Position numbers and translations under genes: made by a program. The notes under the pieces are model-generated. The model did not search any database, was not told the DNA's origin, and saw only the letters and a program-made list of their open reading frames with translations. 64,000 nt of DNA from Cystobacter ferrugineus (lineage in GTDB: Bacteria > Myxococcota > Myxococcia > Myxococcales > Myxococcaceae). How positions within the stretch are numbered: the stretch's first letter is position 1; each line of letters begins with the position of its first letter. Where the stretch lies: positions 122,268 through 186,267 of the forward strand of contig NZ_MPIN01000015.1 of NCBI RefSeq assembly GCF_001887355.1, read 5' to 3'. Positions 38,898-55,730 of the stretch are shown piece by piece.

Positions 38898-38930
38898 GAA
38901 CGACCAGGCTCGCGGGCTCGCTCCGTATTC
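38898..38930 (+). promoter_or_regulatory. 33-bp ECF promoter-like box, copy 1 (before the sigma gene)
   Basis: GAACGACCAGGC, then 3 nt, CGGGCTC, then a CT-containing spacer and CGTATTC. The same array with identical spacing is found at 42171-42203 (28 of 33 positions equal). GAAC and CGTA resemble the -35 and -10 elements of ECF sigma promoters, although the distance between them (22 nt) is longer than usual. It lies 55 nt before the likely GTG start of the sigma gene, suggesting autoregulation. Confidence 0.7.
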
Positions 38931-38984
38931 TAGAAAAAGGGAGTGGGCTGGAGGAGCCGGCCCGCCGGGTGGAGTGGGACACGC

Positions 38985-39677
38985 GTGCTGCTGCCAGGAA
39001 GTGACCGGACCGTGCTGCAGGCCTTCCGCGAGGGGGAGCGAGCCACCCTCACGCGCGTCTACCGCGCCTACTCGCCGCAGGTGGCGCGCTATCTGGCCCG
39101 GCGCTTCTCCGTGCGCTCCGGCACCACCGTGCACCAGGTCGCCCTGGGGGCGCTGGACCTCGACGCGGCACACCAGGAGACCTTCGTCCGCGCCTTCCGG
39201 CCCGCCCTCCGTCAGGCCTATGACGGGGTGCGGCCCTATCTCGGCTTCCTGCTGACGCTCGCGCGCTCCACCGCGGTGGACCTCCTGAGGGCCTCGGGCC
39301 GCATCGCCCGCGAGGCCGTGCCGCTGGACGACGTGCCCGAGCTGGCCCAGGCCCCCACCGAGGAGCGCAACCCCGAGGAGCAGGCGCTGGAGGCCGAGGT
39401 GCGCGCCCTGGTGCGTCAGTTCCTCGAGGGGCTGTCCGAGGAGGCCCGGGCCCTCGCCCAGCTCCGCTTCATGGAGGGCCTGTCCCAGGAAGCCGCCGCC
39501 GCGCGCCTCCAGCTCACCCGCGGTGAGGTGCGGGTGCGCGAGCGCCACCTGCGCGCCGGGTTCACCGAGCACCTGCGGGCCCGGGGATGGTTGGAGGCCG
39601 CGCCCGGGTCCCCGTACGCCACGGAGGGACTCCTCCTGGCCTTCATCGTCCTGAGCGGAATGGGGAGCAGCCCATGA
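38985..39677 (+). CDS. ECF-type RNA polymerase sigma factor
   Basis: 230 residues from GTG 38985; an upstream GTG at 38943 would leave no room for a leader after the promoter-like box. Sigma region 2 about 10-105 (LTRVYRAYSPQVARYLARR, LGFLLTLARSTAVDLLRASGR) and region 4 about 150-215 (LSEEARALAQLRFMEGLSQEAAAARLQLTRGEVR in parts) are separated by an acidic linker with PEEQALEAEV. Region 2 carries an insertion around 40-70, so it is a divergent ECF factor. The stop overlaps the anti-sigma start (ATGA). It should be held inactive by that membrane protein. Confidence 0.9.
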   Translation: MLLPGSDRTVLQAFREGERATLTRVYRAYSPQVARYLARRFSVRSGTTVHQVALGALDLDAAHQETFVRAFRPALRQAYDGVRPYLGFLLTLARSTAVDLLRASGRIAREAVPLDDVPELAQAPTEERNPEEQALEAEVRALVRQFLEGLSEEARALAQLRFMEGLSQEAAAARLQLTRGEVRVRERHLRAGFTEHLRARGWLEAAPGSPYATEGLLLAFIVLSGMGSSP

Positions 39678-40426
39678 GTTGGTTCGACACACACGTGGAC
39701 GGCCTGCTGGCGCGGTGGGCCGAGGGCACGCTGTCCCCGCGCCAGTCCACCCGGCTGCTGCGGCATGCCCACACCTGCGAGCGCTGCGCCAGGCACTACG
39801 AGCGGCTGGTCCGGGCCTCGCGGCTGCTGGAGCGCGGCGAGCCGCACACGCCCACCGACACCGAGTTGACGGTGCTGGCGGACGCGGGGCTCGCGGCGGC
39901 CCTGGCGGCGGCGGAGCCGGAGAGAGCGCGCTCGCGCTGGCCCTCCCTCGCGATGGCCGGGGGGATGCTGGCGGCCGTGAGCCTCGCGGTGCTGGTGCTC
40001 ATACGTCCCGAGGAGAACGACGCGTGGCGCGCCCGGGGAACGGGCCAGCCCACCCGCGCCGTGCTGCGTGTGTTCTGCGCCGTGAGACAGCGGCCCCTGC
40101 GCGAGCTGGAGCCCTCCCAGGCGTGTCCCCCGGGCGCGCAGTTGGCCTTCGCCGTGGGAGCGGACTCCCCGCTCTCCCATGTCGCGGTGGCGGTGCGCGG
40201 CCCCCGGGGCGCCCAGCGCATCGAGGGCCCCTTCCCCATCACCGGACGCCCTGGCGCGGAGCAGCCGCTGGAGACAACCCTCTCCGTCCAACAGCCTCCC
40301 GGCGAGGCGGAAGTCATCGCCGCCTTCGCGCCCTCTCCCCGGGAGGCCCTCGCGGCCCTTCGCGAAGAGGAGCACCGGGAGGCCGTGGTCCTCCGGCTTC
40401 CGGTTCGGATAGAGGACACGCCATGA
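39674..40426 (+). CDS. Zinc-type membrane anti-sigma factor
   Basis: 250 residues. The N-terminal ZAS motif H-x3-C-x2-C is visible in LRHAHTCERCARHYER (about residues 33-48). One transmembrane helix follows near 97-115 (LAMAGGMLAAVSLAVLVLI), and the C-terminal 135 residues are predicted to be periplasmic, with an Ig-like strand pattern and two Cys. This is the classical arrangement for binding the ECF sigma factor in the cytoplasm and sensing an envelope signal. Four-base overlaps with both neighbours show one translational unit. Confidence 0.88.
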   Translation: MSWFDTHVDGLLARWAEGTLSPRQSTRLLRHAHTCERCARHYERLVRASRLLERGEPHTPTDTELTVLADAGLAAALAAAEPERARSRWPSLAMAGGMLAAVSLAVLVLIRPEENDAWRARGTGQPTRAVLRVFCAVRQRPLRELEPSQACPPGAQLAFAVGADSPLSHVAVAVRGPRGAQRIEGPFPITGRPGAEQPLETTLSVQQPPGEAEVIAAFAPSPREALAALREEEHREAVVLRLPVRIEDTP

Positions 40427-42141
40427 GACTTCGCGTCCATGGCGCGGTGCTCGCAATCCCCCTGCTCCTGGCCACCTTGCTCCTCGGCACTCCGTCCCCG
40501 GCCGCCCCCCGGGTACGCCGGGCGCTCGTCATCGCCCACAACGCCAGCGATGACCCGTCGCTCCCCCCGCTCCACTACGCGGACGATGACGGCGTGCTGT
40601 GGACGGAGACGCTGCGGCGGCTCGGCGTGGAGACCACCCTGCTGGTGGACGCGGACGAGGAGACACGCCAGACGGACGCCGCGGTGCTGAAGGGAGTGCG
40701 GGCCCCCACCCCCGAGGAAGTATCCCGGGCGGTGGCGGCGCTGCGCCAGGCCCTCCAGGCGGATCGCGCCGCGGGGCGGCAGACGGACGTGCTGCTCGTC
40801 TACGTGGGCCACGGAAACACCGACACGCTCGGGCGCGCCTACTTCACCCTGCCCGGCGGCCGGTTGGACCGGGCGGGCTTCTACACGCGGCTGGTGGACC
40901 CGCTCGGGGCGGACTTCGTGCACGTGGTGGTGGATGCCTGCCGGGCCTCGGGGGTGGTGGGCCGCCGGGGCCGGCCGGACGCGGAGGTGCTGGCGGAGCT
41001 GCGCGGGGTGCTGGAGCGCGAGCAGCTCGCCACCCGGCCCCACGTGGGCGCCATCTTCGCCGAGAGCGACAGCGGGGAGACGCACGAATGGTCCCGCCTG
41101 CGCGCCGGCGTCTTCAGCCACGTGGTGCGCTCGGGGTTGATGGGGGGCGCGGACGTCAACGGGGATGGCGCGGTGGAGTACAGCGAGATGGCCGCCTTCG
41201 TCACCGCCTCGCTGCAGGAGGTGAAGGCCGTCCCCGTCCGCCTCTCCGTGCACGCCTACGCCCCCTCCCGCGAGCCGCGGCGACCGCTGGTGGACTCCGC
41301 GCCCCGGGGACCGAGCCTGCTGCTGCCGGCCGGGCTCGAGCACGCGCGCATCTCCGTGGAGGACTCCTCCGGCCGGCGGCTGGCGGACGTGCGGCGCGCC
41401 GAGTCCCAGCCCGTGGCCCTGCGTCTGCCGGAGCGCGAGTCCTACTGGATACGCACCCCCACCGCCGAGGCCCGCCTCACGCTCGCCCAGCTCGGCGACG
41501 GGCTGCCCCGGCTCAACCCCCGCGAGCTGCGCGAGCGCGGTCCCGCCGAGGATGCCCTGCGGCGCGGCCTCTTCGCCGTCCCCTTCGACCGCGGCTTCTA
41601 CGAGCACTACGTGGCCACCTCGTCCTTCGTCCCGGTGGACTTCCCCCCCGGAGGCGGAGACGCGCTCGCGCGACGTCCGCCCGAGCCACGGCCGCTGGTG
41701 CTGGAAGTGGGCGTGGTCGCCCAGAGTGCCCCGCTCGGGCTCGCGGCGTTCGCCACCGGGCCCAGCGTGGCGCTGCGGACTTCACGAGCGCCCTACACCC
41801 TCGGACTGCGCGCCACGTACGCCTTCACGCCCCTGCTCCGCGACGGCGTGTCCCTTCAACGGCTGTCGGTGCAGGGACTGCTGGGACTGCGGGACACCGG
41901 GCCCATCGCTCCGTTCCTCGAGGCCGCGGGCGGCTGGAGCCTGGTGGCCGTGAAATACCCCCTGGGTACCACGCAGGGAGACCCCACCGTCCTCTCCGCC
42001 CACCTGTCCGGAGGCGTGATACTCCAGCAGACCCCCGTGCCGATCCGCGTGGCCGCCCTTTTCGGGGTGGACCTCGTCACCACGGATGGCGGGGAGCGGG
42101 GAGACCGCACCTGGGGCGTCGAGGTGACGCTCGGGTTCTGA
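40423..42141 (+). CDS. Exported caspase-family protein with EF-hand and barrel-like C-terminus
   Basis: 572 residues. Signal peptide of about 28 residues (AIPLLLATLLLGTPSPAA). Caspase-like p20 fold with catalytic H130 in YVGHGNTD and C173 in VVDACRASG. An EF-hand loop, D244 to E255 (DVNGDGAVEYSE), lies behind it and suggests calcium control. About residues 425-572 form alternating amphipathic strands ending in GVEVTLGF with terminal Phe, as in outer-membrane barrels. The protein may thus be anchored in the outer membrane with the protease domain in the periplasm. It is third in the sigma/anti-sigma operon (ATGA overlap). Whether it cleaves the anti-sigma factor or another target is unknown. 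Confidence 0.85.
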   Translation: MRLRVHGAVLAIPLLLATLLLGTPSPAAPRVRRALVIAHNASDDPSLPPLHYADDDGVLWTETLRRLGVETTLLVDADEETRQTDAAVLKGVRAPTPEEVSRAVAALRQALQADRAAGRQTDVLLVYVGHGNTDTLGRAYFTLPGGRLDRAGFYTRLVDPLGADFVHVVVDACRASGVVGRRGRPDAEVLAELRGVLEREQLATRPHVGAIFAESDSGETHEWSRLRAGVFSHVVRSGLMGGADVNGDGAVEYSEMAAFVTASLQEVKAVPVRLSVHAYAPSREPRRPLVDSAPRGPSLLLPAGLEHARISVEDSSGRRLADVRRAESQPVALRLPERESYWIRTPTAEARLTLAQLGDGLPRLNPRELRERGPAEDALRRGLFAVPFDRGFYEHYVATSSFVPVDFPPGGGDALARRPPEPRPLVLEVGVVAQSAPLGLAAFATGPSVALRTSRAPYTLGLRATYAFTPLLRDGVSLQRLSVQGLLGLRDTGPIAPFLEAAGGWSLVAVKYPLGTTQGDPTVLSAHLSGGVILQQTPVPIRVAALFGVDLVTTDGGERGDRTWGVEVTLGF

Positions 42142-42170
42142 AGCCCCCCGCGTTGGAAAAAACCGGGCGC

Positions 42171-42203
42171 GAACGACCAGGCGGACGGGCTCCCTACGTA
42201 TTC
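42171..42203 (+). promoter_or_regulatory. 33-bp ECF promoter-like box, copy 2 (before the Fn3/FG-GAP gene)
   Basis: The second copy of the array at 38898-38930, with GAACGACCAGGC and CGTATTC at the same distance. It starts 30 nt after the caspase stop and 50 nt before the GTG at 42253. It implies that the large lipoprotein gene has its own promoter read by the same sigma factor. Confidence 0.7.
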
Positions 42204-42252: not shown

Positions 42253-45200
42253 GTGTCCCGAAGATTGATTCCGTTGTTCCTCGCCCTGCTGGTGGGGGCC
42301 GGTGGCTGTGACCTGGAGCCCATCACCTCCCAGCCGCCCATCTCCGAGCCACCCACCAGGCCCATGGCCCCCTCGGCTCCGGGGCGGGTGGAGGCGCGCG
42401 CCGAGCCGGGCACGGTGACGCTCTCGTGGAGCCCCCCGGAGCACACGGGTAGCCTCACGGGTTACCGGGTGCGCGCCGAGCCGTTGGGAAGCGCTCCACT
42501 CCTCGAGGTGAACGAACCCACGGCCCGCGTCACCGGCCTGAGCGCGGGCGCCACCTACCGCTTCTCGGTGGCCGCGGTGAACGAGGTGGGTGAAGGACCG
42601 GCCACCCGCTCGGAGGCCGTCACCCTGCCGGAGCCCCCCAGCGCACCACCCCAGCCGTCCGTGGTGCGAGGAGATGGACAGGTGCGGGTGAGCTGGACGG
42701 AGCCCGCGACGGACGGGCGAAGCCCCCTCACCGGCTACATCGTCACCGCGCATCCCCAGGGCATTGGGGTGACGGTGGACGCCAGCATGCGCTCCGCGGT
42801 GGTGGAAGGGCTGAGCAATGGCGAGCCCTCCACCTTCACGGTGCGCGCCCTCAACGCCGTGGGCGAGGGCCCCGACTCCCCCGCCTCGCCGAGCGTGGTG
42901 CCGGCCCGCGCGCCCTCGGCGCCGGCCAGCGTCGAGGCCACGGCGGACATCCGCCAGGCCACCGTCACCTGGAACGCCCCCGAGAACACCGGAGGCCTGC
43001 CCATGGACACCTATGTGGTGACGGCCGAGCCGGGCGGCGCCTCACGGCAGGTGGGGGCCGAGTCCCGGAGCGTCACCTTCACCGGGTTGGACAACGGCAC
43101 CGCGTACGCCTTCACCGTGGTGGCGCGCAACGAGGTTGGCGAGGGAGCGGGGCTGCGCTCCGCGCCGGTGCGCACTCCCGACGTGCCCGCCCGGCCCGGC
43201 GAGGTGCGAGCCACGCGCGGCGTCCGCTCTGCCACGGTGACGTGGGAGGCCCCGGCCCAGGACGGCGGTGCCCCGCTCACGGGCTTCATCGTGGAGGCCT
43301 CGCCCTCCGGCGCGCGCGTGCAGGTGGACGCCCAGACGCACAGCGCCACCTTCACGGACCTGAGCAGCACGAAGGCGCATGCCTTCACCGTGTCCGCCCT
43401 CAATGCCGTGGGCAGCAGCGCCGCTTCCGCGCCCTCGGCCGCCGTGCGTCCCCTCCCCGTGCCCGCCGAGGTGACGGACCTCCAGGTGGACACCTCCGAC
43501 GCGGGCTGCCTCACCGTCTCGTACGCGCTGCGCCAGGCGGACGGGCTGCGTGCCGACATCCTCGTGGAGGTGGCCACCCAGGGCGCGGCCCCCTTCACTC
43601 GCGCCACCCAGGCCGGCAGCATCGACCATGAGGGCCTGCTCGCGCGCTCTTCCTCGCCGGAGGGTGATGCCCACGGGTTTCTCTGGAACCGTGGCCACGA
43701 CGTGCCCGGCGCCACCACCGTCCAACTGCGCCTGAGTGCCCAGGTCCCCGGTGCCGCACCGGGCTCGGCGACGCTCGAGCTGTCCCTGCCCGCCGCCGCC
43801 CGCCGCTGCGAGGTCCGGCTGCCCACCAGCATCGTCCAGCCCCTGGCCCACGAACCCCTCCAGGCCGTGAACGGAGACTTCAACCGGGATGGCAAGCCGG
43901 ACCTGGCAGTCGCCATGAACGACAGCAGTACCGTCGCCATCCTGCTGGGGCTGGGCAACGGCGGTTTCCAGCCCCCCATCCAGCACAACGGCATCATCTA
44001 CGGGGTGGGCCACCTCGGCGCCGCGGACCTGGATGGCGACGGCGCGGATGAGCTGCTCGTCCCGGACCAGTCCGGCCGCCTGTGGGTCGCCCGCAACGTG
44101 GGGCATGGAATGTTCCTGGACCCCGTCTCCTACTCCCTGGGCACACCCCTTTGGCGCGACACCACGCCAGGCGCGCTCGCCTTCGCCGACCTCGACGGCG
44201 ACGGCAGCCTCGACGTGGCCACCCTGGGATGGAACAACGACAGATGGAACAACAACCGTCCCCTGGGGATCCTCGCCAACACGGGGGACGGCACGCTGGG
44301 CGGCTTCACCCGGCTGGGGACAAGCGTGGCCTCCAATGCCATTCTCGAGACAGCCGACTTCGACGAGGACGGCCGGGAGGACCTGCTGGCCTTCGGCCCG
44401 CTGGGGGGAAGCACCGTCCTGCTGGCCAATGGAGATGGCACCTTCCGCGAGCGCGCCATCACCTCCATGGTCCACGCGGACAGCGTCGCGGTGGGCGATC
44501 TCGACGGTGATGGCCACCTGGACCTGGCGCTCGCCGCAGTGGACTCCTCCGACCCCACCCAGCTCTACCTCGCCCGGGGAGATGGCCAGGGAGGTTTCTC
44601 CCCAGCGCAGCTCGTGGACTCGCTCACGAACTACGGCAGCCCGCGGCGCGTGGCCCTGACGGTGGTGGACCTGGACCACGATGGCCTGGAGGATCTGGTG
44701 GTGGGAGTGGAGTGGGACCATTCCCTCGCCGTGCTGAGGGGAAGGGGCGCGGGGCTCTTCGCGCCAGCGGTGATGCTACCCGCGGGACACAACCCCATCT
44801 TCGCCACCCGGCGTGACTTCGACGGGGATGGAGTGCAGGACGTGGCGGCGGTGCAGCGCCTGAGCAAGGACGTGCGCGTGTGGCGAGGCGGAGCCGAGGC
44901 CCTGTCGCTGTCCGATGGCCTCACGGGAACCTTCGCCCAGGGAGACTTCAACGCGGATGGGAGGATGGACCTCGTCAATGCCACGCAGCCGGACAACGTC
45001 CAGGTGCTCCTTACCGGCGCTTCCGACGGCCCGCGGGCCCAGGAGCCCGTAGCGATGAATGGCTCGATCTATCAACTGGTCGTGGGCCACGTGGACGGAG
45101 ACGCGGCCCTGGACGTCCTGGTGTTGTACGGCGGGTACCGTCCCTCGAGCTTCGGACTCCTCCTGGGCAACGGCGATGGCACCCTGCGCCGCGCCGCCGA

Positions 45201-45945
45201 CATCCCCATCGGGGCGATGCCGGAGCATGCGACCCTCGGTGATGTGAACGGAGATGGGCGGATGGACATCGTCTGCCGGGTGCACTTCGCTATCGAGCCC
45301 GGCTACTACACCACGGAGGTCTGGCTGTTGCTCGGCCAGGGCGATGGCACCTTCGCTCCCGCCACGGTCGTGACGACCAGCCCCAACCCGGGCAGGCCGG
45401 CACTGGGGGACCTCGATCGCAACGGCACCTTGGACATGATCATGCCGCAGGATGCACCCAGTGGCGGGGTGCTGCTGCTCAAGGGCCGTGGCGATGGCAC
45501 CTTCCTGCCTCCCGTGCACCTCTGGTACCAGGCAGGCCAGAACGACGGCCATATCGCCCTGGCGGATCTCAACGGGGACGGCTTCCCGGAGATCGTGCGC
45601 AGCAACGCCTACGACCAAAGCGTCCACGTGCTGCGCTCGTACTCGGGGAGTTGGACGGCCTGGGAGAGCAGGAGCTACGCGGCGGGCGGCAACTGCACCG
45701 ACATCTTCGTGCGGGACTTCGATGAGGACGGGCGACTGGACGTGATCTGCTCCAATCCGGGCATGGACTCGGTCTCGCTGCTCAGAGGCGATGTGTACGG
45801 GCAACTGGCGCAGCCACAGGTCTTCGGGGTGCGCACCGATCTCTACAAACTGGGGGTGCTCGACGTGAACGCGGATGGGCGCCTGGACATCATCACGGGG
45901 GGAGGCCCGACCATCACCCAGGGCTCGCTGATCCTCCAGCGCTGA
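42253..45945 (+). CDS. Giant Fn3/FG-GAP repeat lipoprotein
   Basis: 1230 residues from GTG 42253, which follows AGGGGGGAAG; the ATG at 42217 lies too close to the expected transcription start. Lipobox VGAGGC near residue 18. Four fibronectin type III domains span about 38-395 (repeats of PSAPASVEATA, TVTWNAPENTGG and FTVRALNAVGEGP). A strand-rich domain follows to about 535. About 535-1225 hold some ten FG-GAP/VCBS repeats with calcium loops such as DLDGDGADE, DLDGDGSLD and DVNGDGRMD, which usually fold as a beta-propeller. A surface adhesion or matrix role is likely. Control by the upstream ECF factor is inferred from the shared box. Confidence 0.9.
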   Translation: MSRRLIPLFLALLVGAGGCDLEPITSQPPISEPPTRPMAPSAPGRVEARAEPGTVTLSWSPPEHTGSLTGYRVRAEPLGSAPLLEVNEPTARVTGLSAGATYRFSVAAVNEVGEGPATRSEAVTLPEPPSAPPQPSVVRGDGQVRVSWTEPATDGRSPLTGYIVTAHPQGIGVTVDASMRSAVVEGLSNGEPSTFTVRALNAVGEGPDSPASPSVVPARAPSAPASVEATADIRQATVTWNAPENTGGLPMDTYVVTAEPGGASRQVGAESRSVTFTGLDNGTAYAFTVVARNEVGEGAGLRSAPVRTPDVPARPGEVRATRGVRSATVTWEAPAQDGGAPLTGFIVEASPSGARVQVDAQTHSATFTDLSSTKAHAFTVSALNAVGSSAASAPSAAVRPLPVPAEVTDLQVDTSDAGCLTVSYALRQADGLRADILVEVATQGAAPFTRATQAGSIDHEGLLARSSSPEGDAHGFLWNRGHDVPGATTVQLRLSAQVPGAAPGSATLELSLPAAARRCEVRLPTSIVQPLAHEPLQAVNGDFNRDGKPDLAVAMNDSSTVAILLGLGNGGFQPPIQHNGIIYGVGHLGAADLDGDGADELLVPDQSGRLWVARNVGHGMFLDPVSYSLGTPLWRDTTPGALAFADLDGDGSLDVATLGWNNDRWNNNRPLGILANTGDGTLGGFTRLGTSVASNAILETADFDEDGREDLLAFGPLGGSTVLLANGDGTFRERAITSMVHADSVAVGDLDGDGHLDLALAAVDSSDPTQLYLARGDGQGGFSPAQLVDSLTNYGSPRRVALTVVDLDHDGLEDLVVGVEWDHSLAVLRGRGAGLFAPAVMLPAGHNPIFATRRDFDGDGVQDVAAVQRLSKDVRVWRGGAEALSLSDGLTGTFAQGDFNADGRMDLVNATQPDNVQVLLTGASDGPRAQEPVAMNGSIYQLVVGHVDGDAALDVLVLYGGYRPSSFGLLLGNGDGTLRRAADIPIGAMPEHATLGDVNGDGRMDIVCRVHFAIEPGYYTTEVWLLLGQGDGTFAPATVVTTSPNPGRPALGDLDRNGTLDMIMPQDAPSGGVLLLKGRGDGTFLPPVHLWYQAGQNDGHIALADLNGDGFPEIVRSNAYDQSVHVLRSYSGSWTAWESRSYAAGGNCTDIFVRDFDEDGRLDVICSNPGMDSVSLLRGDVYGQLAQPQVFGVRTDLYKLGVLDVNADGRLDIITGGGPTITQGSLILQR

Positions 45946-52780: not shown

Positions 52781-52924
52781 GGTTGCTCCCGGGAGGTGTG
52801 AACGCGGGAACTCCCCGGCGGTCACAGTGTCTTCGTGAGCGCTAGTATATGACCGGTCGTCTTATATCGCCAGATGATTCGTCCTCCAGGCTGTGCCCTC
52901 GTCCCAGCCCAGGTTGTGCCGGAG

Positions 52925-53187
52925 TCAGGAGCCCGGTGGCGGGGGCGGCGCGAACTTCCAGAGCACTTTGTCCCCCGCCTGGAGCACCTTGGCGCCCACG
53001 CCCGCGTCGGCGTAGGTGCCATTGACCCAGAACTGCCAGCTCCGCTTGTCTCGCCCGCCGCTCTGGTTCTTGAACCCATCAATCCCGGTGACGAACACCG
53101 TGGCGCCACTGCCCGTGTGTTTGATGGCGATGGGAGGAGAGCGCCGGGCCGCGGCCTGGGTGGCCTCCTAGTCCGTCATCCCCTGGC
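52925..53187 (-). pseudogene. 3' fragment of a DUF4430-like gene
   Basis: The 257 bp at 52931-53187 match 55275-55531 of the intact gene with about a dozen differences counted by eye. The frame keeps the C-terminal part (VFVTGIDGFKNQ, VNGTYADAGVGAK, FAPPPPPGS) and ends at a TGA at 52925-52927. The codon for Trp in MTAWEA has become TAG (53168-53170), and no start codon or signal peptide is attached. It is therefore a broken partial copy. It forms the left direct repeat around the toxin/immunity cassette. Confidence 0.88.
52931..53187. repeat. Direct repeat, left copy
   Basis: Left copy of a 257-bp repeat whose right copy is 55275-55531 (offset 2344 bp), same orientation, about 95% identical by eye. 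Similarity stops abruptly after CCCTGGC at 53187. Recombination between the copies would remove the toxin and its immunity gene together. Confidence 0.88.
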
Positions 53188-55265: not shown

Positions 55266-55730
55266 TCACCAGGTGCCCGGTGGCGGGGGCGGCGCGAACT
55301 TCCAGAGCACTTTGTCCCCCGCCTGGAGCACCTTGGCGCCCACGCCCGCGTCGGCGTAGGTGCCATTGACCCAGAACTGCCAGCTCCGCTTGTCTCGCCC
55401 GCCGCCCTGGTTCTTGAACCCATCGATCCCGGTGACGAACACCATGGAGCCACTGCCCGAGTGCTTGAGTTCGATGGAAGGGGAGCGCCGGGCCGCGGCC
55501 TGGGTGGCCTCCCAGGCCGTCATCCCCTGGCGCCACTCGATGCCCGTCAGGACCTTCTCCTTGCCATTGCCATAATCAAAGACAACCGAGACGGTCGCGG
55601 GGGCGCTCTTGCCCTCCGGGGCCTTCTTCGCCGGCTCATCCGCCCAGACGGGCACCGAGGCGAACCCCAGCACCACCAGCGCCAGACAGCCCAGCAGGGA
55701 ACGACGTGACGGCTTCGGGGTCTCACTCAT
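55266..55730 (-). CDS. Exported DUF4430-like protein with Tat-type signal
   Basis: 154 residues. N-terminus SRRSLLGCLALVVLGFASVPVWA carries a twin-arginine motif, suggesting Tat export. The mature domain (about 45-154) with TGIEWRQGMTAWEATQAAARR, VFVTGIDGFKNQ and WQFWVNGTYADAGVGAKVLQAGDKVLWKF resembles the DUF4430/transcobalamin-like C-terminal fold, which is related to gel-forming or cobalamin-binding modules. It overlaps ileS by four bases (ATGA), an odd partner for an aminoacyl-tRNA synthetase. Residue motifs are intact, unlike the fragment at 52925-53187. Confidence 0.82.
   Translation of the reverse strand: MSETPKPSRRSLLGCLALVVLGFASVPVWADEPAKKAPEGKSAPATVSVVFDYGNGKEKVLTGIEWRQGMTAWEATQAAARRSPSIELKHSGSGSMVFVTGIDGFKNQGGGRDKRSWQFWVNGTYADAGVGAKVLQAGDKVLWKFAPPPPPGTW
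55275..55531. repeat. Direct repeat, right copy
   Basis: Right copy of the 257-bp repeat, located in the 3' part of the intact DUF4430-like gene. The differences from the left copy cluster in the region coding for ARRSPSIELKHSGSGS, so the left copy has drifted or came from a different strain. Confidence 0.88.

Follow-up and report, generated by a model that had tools for sequence, protein, structure and literature searches.

A candidate promoter pair of an ECF sigma factor connecting a sigma/anti-sigma/caspase operon with a giant lipoprotein gene in Cystobacter ferrugineus

We analyzed a stretch of 64,000 nucleotides (nt) from the genome of the myxobacterium Cystobacter ferrugineus (contig NZ_MPIN01000015.1, positions 122,268 to 186,267 of the forward strand; hereafter, the window), where two similar 33-nt boxes precede, respectively, the gene of an extracytoplasmic function (ECF) sigma factor and the gene of a giant lipoprotein. 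Comparison of genomes makes it very probable that both boxes are promoters of this sigma factor and belong to one regulon. A first-pass annotation of the window had proposed that the sigma factor reads both promoters, linking sigma, anti-sigma, caspase and lipoprotein, and comparative genomics supports this proposal: the box is retained at orthologous loci, has no further copies in the own genome, co-occurs with the sigma factor among related genomes, and precedes a homologue of the lipoprotein gene located on a different contig from the sigma gene (genome G030). The boxes and the genes following them are:

38898..38930, + strand: box 1, putative sigma operon promoter; -35 element CGACC at 38901-38905, 18-nt spacer, -10 element CGTAT at 38924-38928
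38985..39677, + strand: ECF sigma gene; the GTG start at 38985 was picked by comparison of orthologues, the listed frame opening at 38943
42171..42203, + strand: box 2, putative promoter for the lipoprotein gene; -35 element CGACC at 42174-42178, 18-nt spacer, -10 element CGTAT at 42197-42201
42253..45945, + strand: giant lipoprotein gene; the product has a lipobox Cys, recognized both visually and by a script, along with four Fn3 stretches and FG-GAP repeats

Read directly from the sequence, box 1 (38898-38930) is GAACGACCAGGCTCGCGGGCTCGCTCCGTATTC and box 2 (42171-42203) is GAACGACCAGGCGGACGGGCTCCCTACGTATTC. They match at 28 of 33 positions without gaps, exactly as reported earlier; the word "identical" in the title of the first-pass annotation was thus an overstatement. 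The flanks of the boxes are unrelated (13 of 60 positions identical upstream, 17 of 60 downstream), and both boxes are situated approximately 50 nt ahead of the proposed gene starts.

A protein search with the sigma factor retrieved 25 relatives from titled genome records; 24 of the titles are myxobacterial and one is Comamonas. The exact core CRACC-N18-CGTAT was observed upstream of the sigma gene in 22 of these 25 orthologous loci; absence of the box from orthologous loci, which had been named as an outcome contrary to the initial proposal, is thus not what we observe. In a table of 27 boxes (24 sigma boxes, including the one in the window, and three lipoprotein boxes), no variation is seen in T-N-CGTAT or in the CC of CRACC: the -10 element is CGTAT in 27 of 27 rows, the -35 element is CGACC (n = 22), CAACC (n = 4) or TAGCC (n = 1), and the spacer is 18 nt long, with partial conservation in the columns CGGGCTC. 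As CRACC is conserved and the preceding GAA varies, we take CRACC as the -35 element and 18 nt as the spacer, and reject GAAC, the -35 element suggested earlier along with an unusually long 22-nt gap. The spacer of ECF promoters is usually near 16-17 nt. Passages of PMC8103513 and PMC3426412 describe AAC-type -35 and CGT-type -10 elements of ECF promoters, the latter source giving TGTCACA-n16-CGTC (spacer 16 +/- 1) for ECF41; the distance from RAC to CGT in our boxes, 19 nt, exceeds the ECF41 one by approximately 2 nt, being only mildly long. The boxes look like a pair of bipartite ECF-type promoters, and, judging by the conserved columns, the recognized sequence would be aCRACC-N18-CGTAT.

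In the own 12.05-Mb genome, the pattern CRACC-N16-TN-CGTATY has exactly two matches, box 1 and box 2 (reversed control, 0), at variance with the many unrelated copies that the first-pass annotation had named as a sign against its proposal. The long pattern with at most three mismatches in 28 specified positions yields no third copy genome-wide, its reversed control again being 0. Relaxed searches return background: 55 matches, both boxes included, vs. 58 in the control for the core motif with one mismatch, and 15 vs. 14 for GAACGACC-N18-CGTATTC with at most two mismatches. The former comparison gives no support to a larger regulon in this genome. A 38-column profile built from 24 boxes, both window boxes being among the training rows, scored the two boxes at 31.6 and 23.6 bits, and the next site, among the 150 of 6191 first-look candidates that were scored, at 13.0 bits. 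Thus, judging by these searches, the two boxes are probably the only consensus target promoters of the sigma factor in its own genome. Two similar 33-nt sites on contig C19 (L016, positions 5918 and 11009), matched by the loose pattern, were considered as a second system and rejected, as this pattern matches about as often as its reversed control; the sites lie in a duplicated region containing RCC1-like genes, where no sigma gene was seen among the translated frames.

The core motif was further searched in 39 genomes (27 with a close sigma orthologue, 9 without it, and 3 with a divergent sigma; sums by hand). In the 27 sigma-carrying genomes there are 126 exact matches vs. 13 in the reversed control, and 102 are left when the 24 boxes of the sigma genes themselves are set aside; as the genomes are related and not independent, the contrast of 126 and 13 suggests more independent events than there are. 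The nine genomes without the orthologue, three congeners among them, have 3 matches vs. 10 in the control; these genomes contain only weaker sigma matches, with identity of at most 44% where listed (for one of them, G018, the best match has an E-value of 1.3e-5 and no listed identity). The genomes with divergent sigmas (G055, G082, G083) have 2 matches vs. 1. A sigma-carrying genome has from 1 to 9 exact sites, hence the regulon size seems to vary among relatives.

We took 110 site loci (L094-L203) with 107 distinct site sequences, 102 of them other than sigma boxes; five of the latter belong to genomes that lack the sigma or have a divergent one, and 13 of the 102 were judged intragenic. For the remaining 89 sites, a gene start is found 10-200 nt downstream in 75 cases, vs. 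40 in the opposite direction. In eight genomes, seven of Corallococcus and one Myxococcaceae metagenome-assembled genome, MAG (L104, L128, L134, L141, L143, L158, L161, L165), a box recurs upstream of an orthologous gene (MDVKGVAFLARQTM...), which is probably a further conserved target of the sigma factor.

A lipoprotein-like gene directly follows the caspase gene in 21 of the 24 loci examined, the script finding none in L035, L040 and L041. The gap between the caspase gene and the lipoprotein frame is at most approximately 30 bases in Myxococcus, Pyxidicoccus and Citreicoccus, and approximately 30-100 bases in Corallococcus-type loci, in all these cases without a box; the lipoprotein gene there is thus probably within the operon. 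In genome G030, a homologue of the Fn3/FG-GAP lipoprotein (60% identity over approximately 480-500 amino acids) has its own box, the sigma gene being on a different contig. In a congener without an orthologue of the sigma/anti-sigma/caspase trio (G002), the region upstream of the homologue aligns well, lacks CGACC, and has CGTAG in place of CGTAT.

Several observations, besides the relatedness of the genomes, weigh against reading the boxes as one promoter pair of this sigma. The box precedes the caspase-adjacent lipoprotein gene in just 5 of the 24 loci (the own genome; Archangium violaceum Cb vi76, L017; Hyalangium, L022; G030, L083; G010, L084), 19 being without it, and none was found upstream of the Fn3 homologue in M. 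xanthus (L283, 49% identity). The contrast between G030 and G002 is a single pair and would fit either loss or gain of the promoter. At the sigma gene itself, the Hyalangium box is degenerate (TAGCC-N18-CGTAT), no box directly precedes the sigma in the two most divergent MAG loci (L040, L041; 44-47% identity), and the sigma boxes of G010 (L044) and G030 (L043), not part of the table, retain CGACC-N18-CGTAT and lack the T and Y that the search pattern further specifies. By a crude test, the predicted targets in other genomes show no enrichment in exported products (30 of 75 vs. 19 of 40 in the opposite direction), hence an enrichment of lipoproteins or export among these targets is unsupported. 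Finally, 15 direct-repeat diagonals in the window, the box pair included, reach 28 of 33; the other 14, not all of which were checked individually, seem by eye to be coding or tandem repeats. Thus, likeness of this degree is not rare in the GC-rich window, and the significance of the boxes needs outside evidence. Separately, 52922-53158 and 55266-55502 of the window are long, highly similar stretches 2.3 kb apart, perhaps duplicated gene parts.

The outside evidence also bears on three other explanations of the boxes. The frequency of equally good diagonals would fit chance likeness or recent functionless copying, which we find hardly credible given the conservation at orthologues, the uniqueness in the genome, the co-occurrence with the sigma, and the unrelated flanks. 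The boxes might be read by another ECF sigma of the same genome, where nine sigma homologue matches are found, this sigma included, and at least two further sigma genes adjoin caspases; this is very improbable, as the nine genomes with weaker sigma matches only show no enrichment of the motif, and the profile search found no box before paralogous sigmas in the loci searched. It is very improbable that the box is an operator of a DNA-binding regulator and no sigma promoter at all. Partial conservation of the spacer beyond the apparent need of an ECF promoter would agree with an operator; however, the two blocks keep a fixed 18-nt spacing, CGT occupies the -10 place, the distance to both proposed starts is similar, the presence of the box is tied to the sigma across genomes, and the spacer differs between genomes having both boxes. 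We thus retain the reading of the two boxes as promoters of the adjacent sigma factor.

The operon downstream of box 1 further contains:

39674..40426, + strand: membrane anti-sigma gene; zf-HC2 motif H-x3-C-x2-C, one transmembrane helix, beta-rich periplasmic domain
40034..40039, + strand: codons R121-G122 of the anti-sigma gene, proposed caspase cut site; invariant in 22 of 22, in a linker predicted to be disordered and periplasmic
40423..42141, + strand: gene of an exported caspase of the Peptidase_C14 type, containing H130 and C173; an eight-stranded outer-membrane barrel is predicted for residues 425-572 (41695-42138)

The sigma protein has the composition of an ECF sigma factor, with regions sigma2 and sigma4 only; it matches TIGR02937 (64.8 bits, cut-off 42.9) and Sigma70_r4 (26, cut-off 24.1), and Sigma70_r2 scores 16.9, below its cut-off of 24. 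Its C-terminal tail TEGLLLAFIVLSGMG (39610-39677) is hydrophobic, as is that of the L040 sigma, which is odd for a cytoplasmic sigma factor. The co-encoded membrane anti-sigma, typical of ECF systems, is also present: the protein matches zf-HC2 at 22.9 bits (cut-off 22.2), with no variation at H31, C35 or C38 in any of the 22 sequences; the predicted helix 96-109 in the transmembrane stretch has a low predicted local distance difference test score (pLDDT), and the periplasmic beta-rich domain is well predicted. Among the 25 sigma loci, the anti-sigma gene is present in all 25 and the caspase gene in 21, the contig of the other four ending no more than approximately 1 kb past the sigma start; the trio is also found in G030, G010 and G055, and M. 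xanthus has the operon conserved at L026.

The caspase belongs to family C14, matching PF00656 at 24.8 bits (cut-off 21.4), with the dyad H130/C173 invariant in 22 of 22 sequences and a signal peptide seen by eye. In its C-terminal 148 residues, the AlphaFold2 model has eight strands at 425-571 (pLDDT of 69-95 in 10-residue blocks), and the first six Foldseek matches include NspA (1.3e-6), OmpA and OmpX (approximately 1e-5), with probability 1.00 and TMt of 0.57-0.65; the predicted structure is thus an eight-stranded barrel of the OmpA/OmpX/NspA type. The N-terminal part is partly of low confidence and weakly matches caspase-2 (1.4e-3), the mean pLDDT of the entire model being 64.7. In OmpA-like barrels, the number of strands is even, and a domain N-terminal to the barrel is placed in the periplasm; by this structural analogy, the caspase domain would be periplasmic.

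Metacaspases prefer Arg or Lys in the P1 position, cutting after these residues. In the anti-sigma, R121-G122 is invariant in 22 of 22 sequences amid a variable, gap-rich stretch, with pLDDT below 50 at residues 110-125. A second caspase-linked anti-sigma family, which aligns with this one in four of nine loci at 30-38% identity, has [RK][GAS] at the equivalent place in 9 of 9 loci, and the third one, retrieved via another caspase gene of the own genome, has R-x-K-G in 16 of 16 recovered anti-sigmas, none being recovered in 4 of the 20 loci. Given the P1 preference, the conserved Arg-Gly or Lys-Gly is suggested as the caspase cut site, a pattern noticed after the fact, and the caspase is proposed as a site-1 protease. 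Among 24 zf-HC2 matches listed in the own genome, 11 have a transmembrane-like stretch scoring at least 1.6, and in four of these a basic-Gly dipeptide is found within 20 residues past it: this anti-sigma, two other caspase-linked ones, and L244. The other seven lack it, one of them, L236, having only three residues after the stretch. Two cases count against the proposed site: L244 has Arg-Gly without a resolved neighboring caspase, and L238/L257, with a caspase-like CHAT part (by eye), breaks the rule, having no basic-Gly.

The proposed pathway would operate as follows. In the resting state, the zinc-finger anti-sigma of the inner membrane would hold the sigma factor, and the caspase would be anchored in the outer membrane by its C-terminal OmpA-like barrel, the protease domain facing the periplasm. 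On a surface signal, the caspase would cut the anti-sigma after the invariant Arg of the juxtamembrane linker; further proteolysis would free the sigma factor, and both promoters would be transcribed. Box 1, conserved before the sigma gene, would then provide positive autoregulation of the sigma/anti-sigma/caspase operon, and box 2 would drive the Fn3/FG-GAP surface lipoprotein. Binding of the sigma, the direction of regulation, the location of the caspase domain, the cut and the signal are what we infer from sequences and models.

We give even chances to the caspase being the activating protease. Alternatively, with the promoters working as described, the caspase may be an output of the pathway, processing or releasing the lipoprotein or envelope proteins, and the anti-sigma may be cut by ordinary site-1 and site-2 proteases; this is a sizeable possibility, albeit on the doubtful side. 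Box 1 would control the caspase gene as well, whose usual neighbor is a lipoprotein gene. The motif C-x(0,3)-PI, moreover, is found in 6 of 82 distinct predicted lipoprotein N-termini (by a stricter script; the motif was seen before being counted), all six caspase-adjacent, as if the caspase acted on or with such lipoproteins. On the other hand, a basic-small dipeptide is kept in the anti-sigma linker of three divergent caspase-linked families, seven of the eight other transmembrane zf-HC2 frames have no basic-Gly (with the above reservation for the short L236), and in CRISPR-associated CASP the inhibition of an ECF sigma is lifted by a protease of the caspase family, according to parts of PMC10028731.

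The mature giant lipoprotein starts with CDLEPITSQPP, and C-x(0,3)-PI opens 8 of the 21 caspase-adjacent lipoproteins (42253 in the window, L017, L022, L032, L034, L083, L084, L085), the others often having GI, AI, TI or PL; it is possible that the motif is a tether or sorting signal. In L040 and L041, a lipoprotein with RCC1 repeats (CLSPITSE and CLDPITSQ, respectively) precedes the sigma gene instead of following the caspase gene, and a nearby lipoprotein gene, fasciclin-like by eye, has a core box in L040, weak by the profile (12.0 bits).

Related modules are found elsewhere in the own genome. The third module (L258, C6:442500-449500) comprises an ECF sigma, an anti-sigma with an RLKG linker, and an exported caspase whose C-terminus, by eye, also looks barrel-like, with a lipoprotein-like gene immediately following. 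At L259/L082 (C11 near 304125), a paralogous sigma and anti-sigma are divergent from a caspase ending before the barrel region, with no box by the profile. Adjoining a sigma gene, the frame 1418-4384 of L257 (C6) encodes a zf-HC2 finger, a transmembrane helix, and C-terminal parts that by eye resemble TPR and CHAT, and is possibly an anti-sigma fused to a caspase-like protease. Upstream regions of the paralogous modules contain a GATCC-like block, again by eye.

Each of the known systems resembles the proposed pathway in some respects. As usually described, RpoE-RseA and SigW-RsiW share with it the sigma gene followed by the membrane anti-sigma gene, the self-promoter with a CGT-type -10 element and the presumed proteolytic release; here, in contrast, the -35 element is CRACC, the spacer is 18 nt, and the operon additionally encodes an exported barrel-caspase and then a lipoprotein. 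In cell-surface signaling, the signal likewise passes from the outer membrane to an inner-membrane anti-sigma and an ECF sigma, whereas here a barrel with a caspase domain replaces the outer-membrane receptor. ECF41, as presented in parts of PMC3426412, also has a very small regulon, with the adjoining target gene sharing the promoter motif of the sigma gene, but differs in the motif itself, COE neighbor genes and the fused C-terminal regulatory domain. In CASP (Csx29 protease, Csx30 and CASP-sigma; sections of PMC10028731), the sigma motifs are likewise located in the own locus; the protease there, however, is a TPR-CHAT one acting with Cas7-11, compared with the exported C14 caspase and membrane anti-sigma here. 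Neither TPR-CHAT nor a Csx30-type inhibitor was detected, as a Pfam search at E 0.1 gave only Peptidase_C14 for the caspase and only zf-HC2 for the anti-sigma; Cas genes were not searched for. A further parallel comes from M. xanthus DK1622, where four of five metacaspases are in operons with sigma factors (sections of PMC3501461, in which we found no promoter, anti-sigma site, barrel or lipoprotein); CHAT proteins near ECF54 are mentioned in a part of PMC8999054. In searches of the PubMed Central (PMC) open-access literature, which leaves most subscription papers out of its scope, we saw no account of the two promoters, of the barrel or of the site in the linker.

Tentatively, and with somewhat less confidence than we place in the caspase of the window as an activator, these observations may be extended to a myxobacterial family of outer-membrane-anchored periplasmic caspases acting as site-1 proteases. 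In such a family, the barrel, perhaps together with the neighboring surface lipoprotein, would sense outside contact, and a cut in the basic-small linker would free an ECF sigma with a private promoter code. The lipoproteins beside the caspases would then include Fn3/FG-GAP, RCC1 propeller, DUF7151/receptor-L and other types, many with a C-x-P-I-like tether, and at least three caspase-linked sigma modules, two with a barrel-like caspase C-terminus, would coexist in the own genome. Exported caspases are numerous in the myxobacterial genomes searched, and their functions are called largely unknown in a part of PMC3501461. The proposed pathway would give exported bacterial caspases a concrete, testable role, and its defined promoter code, exact predicted cut site and two-promoter regulon would make it accessible with a few mutants and reporters.

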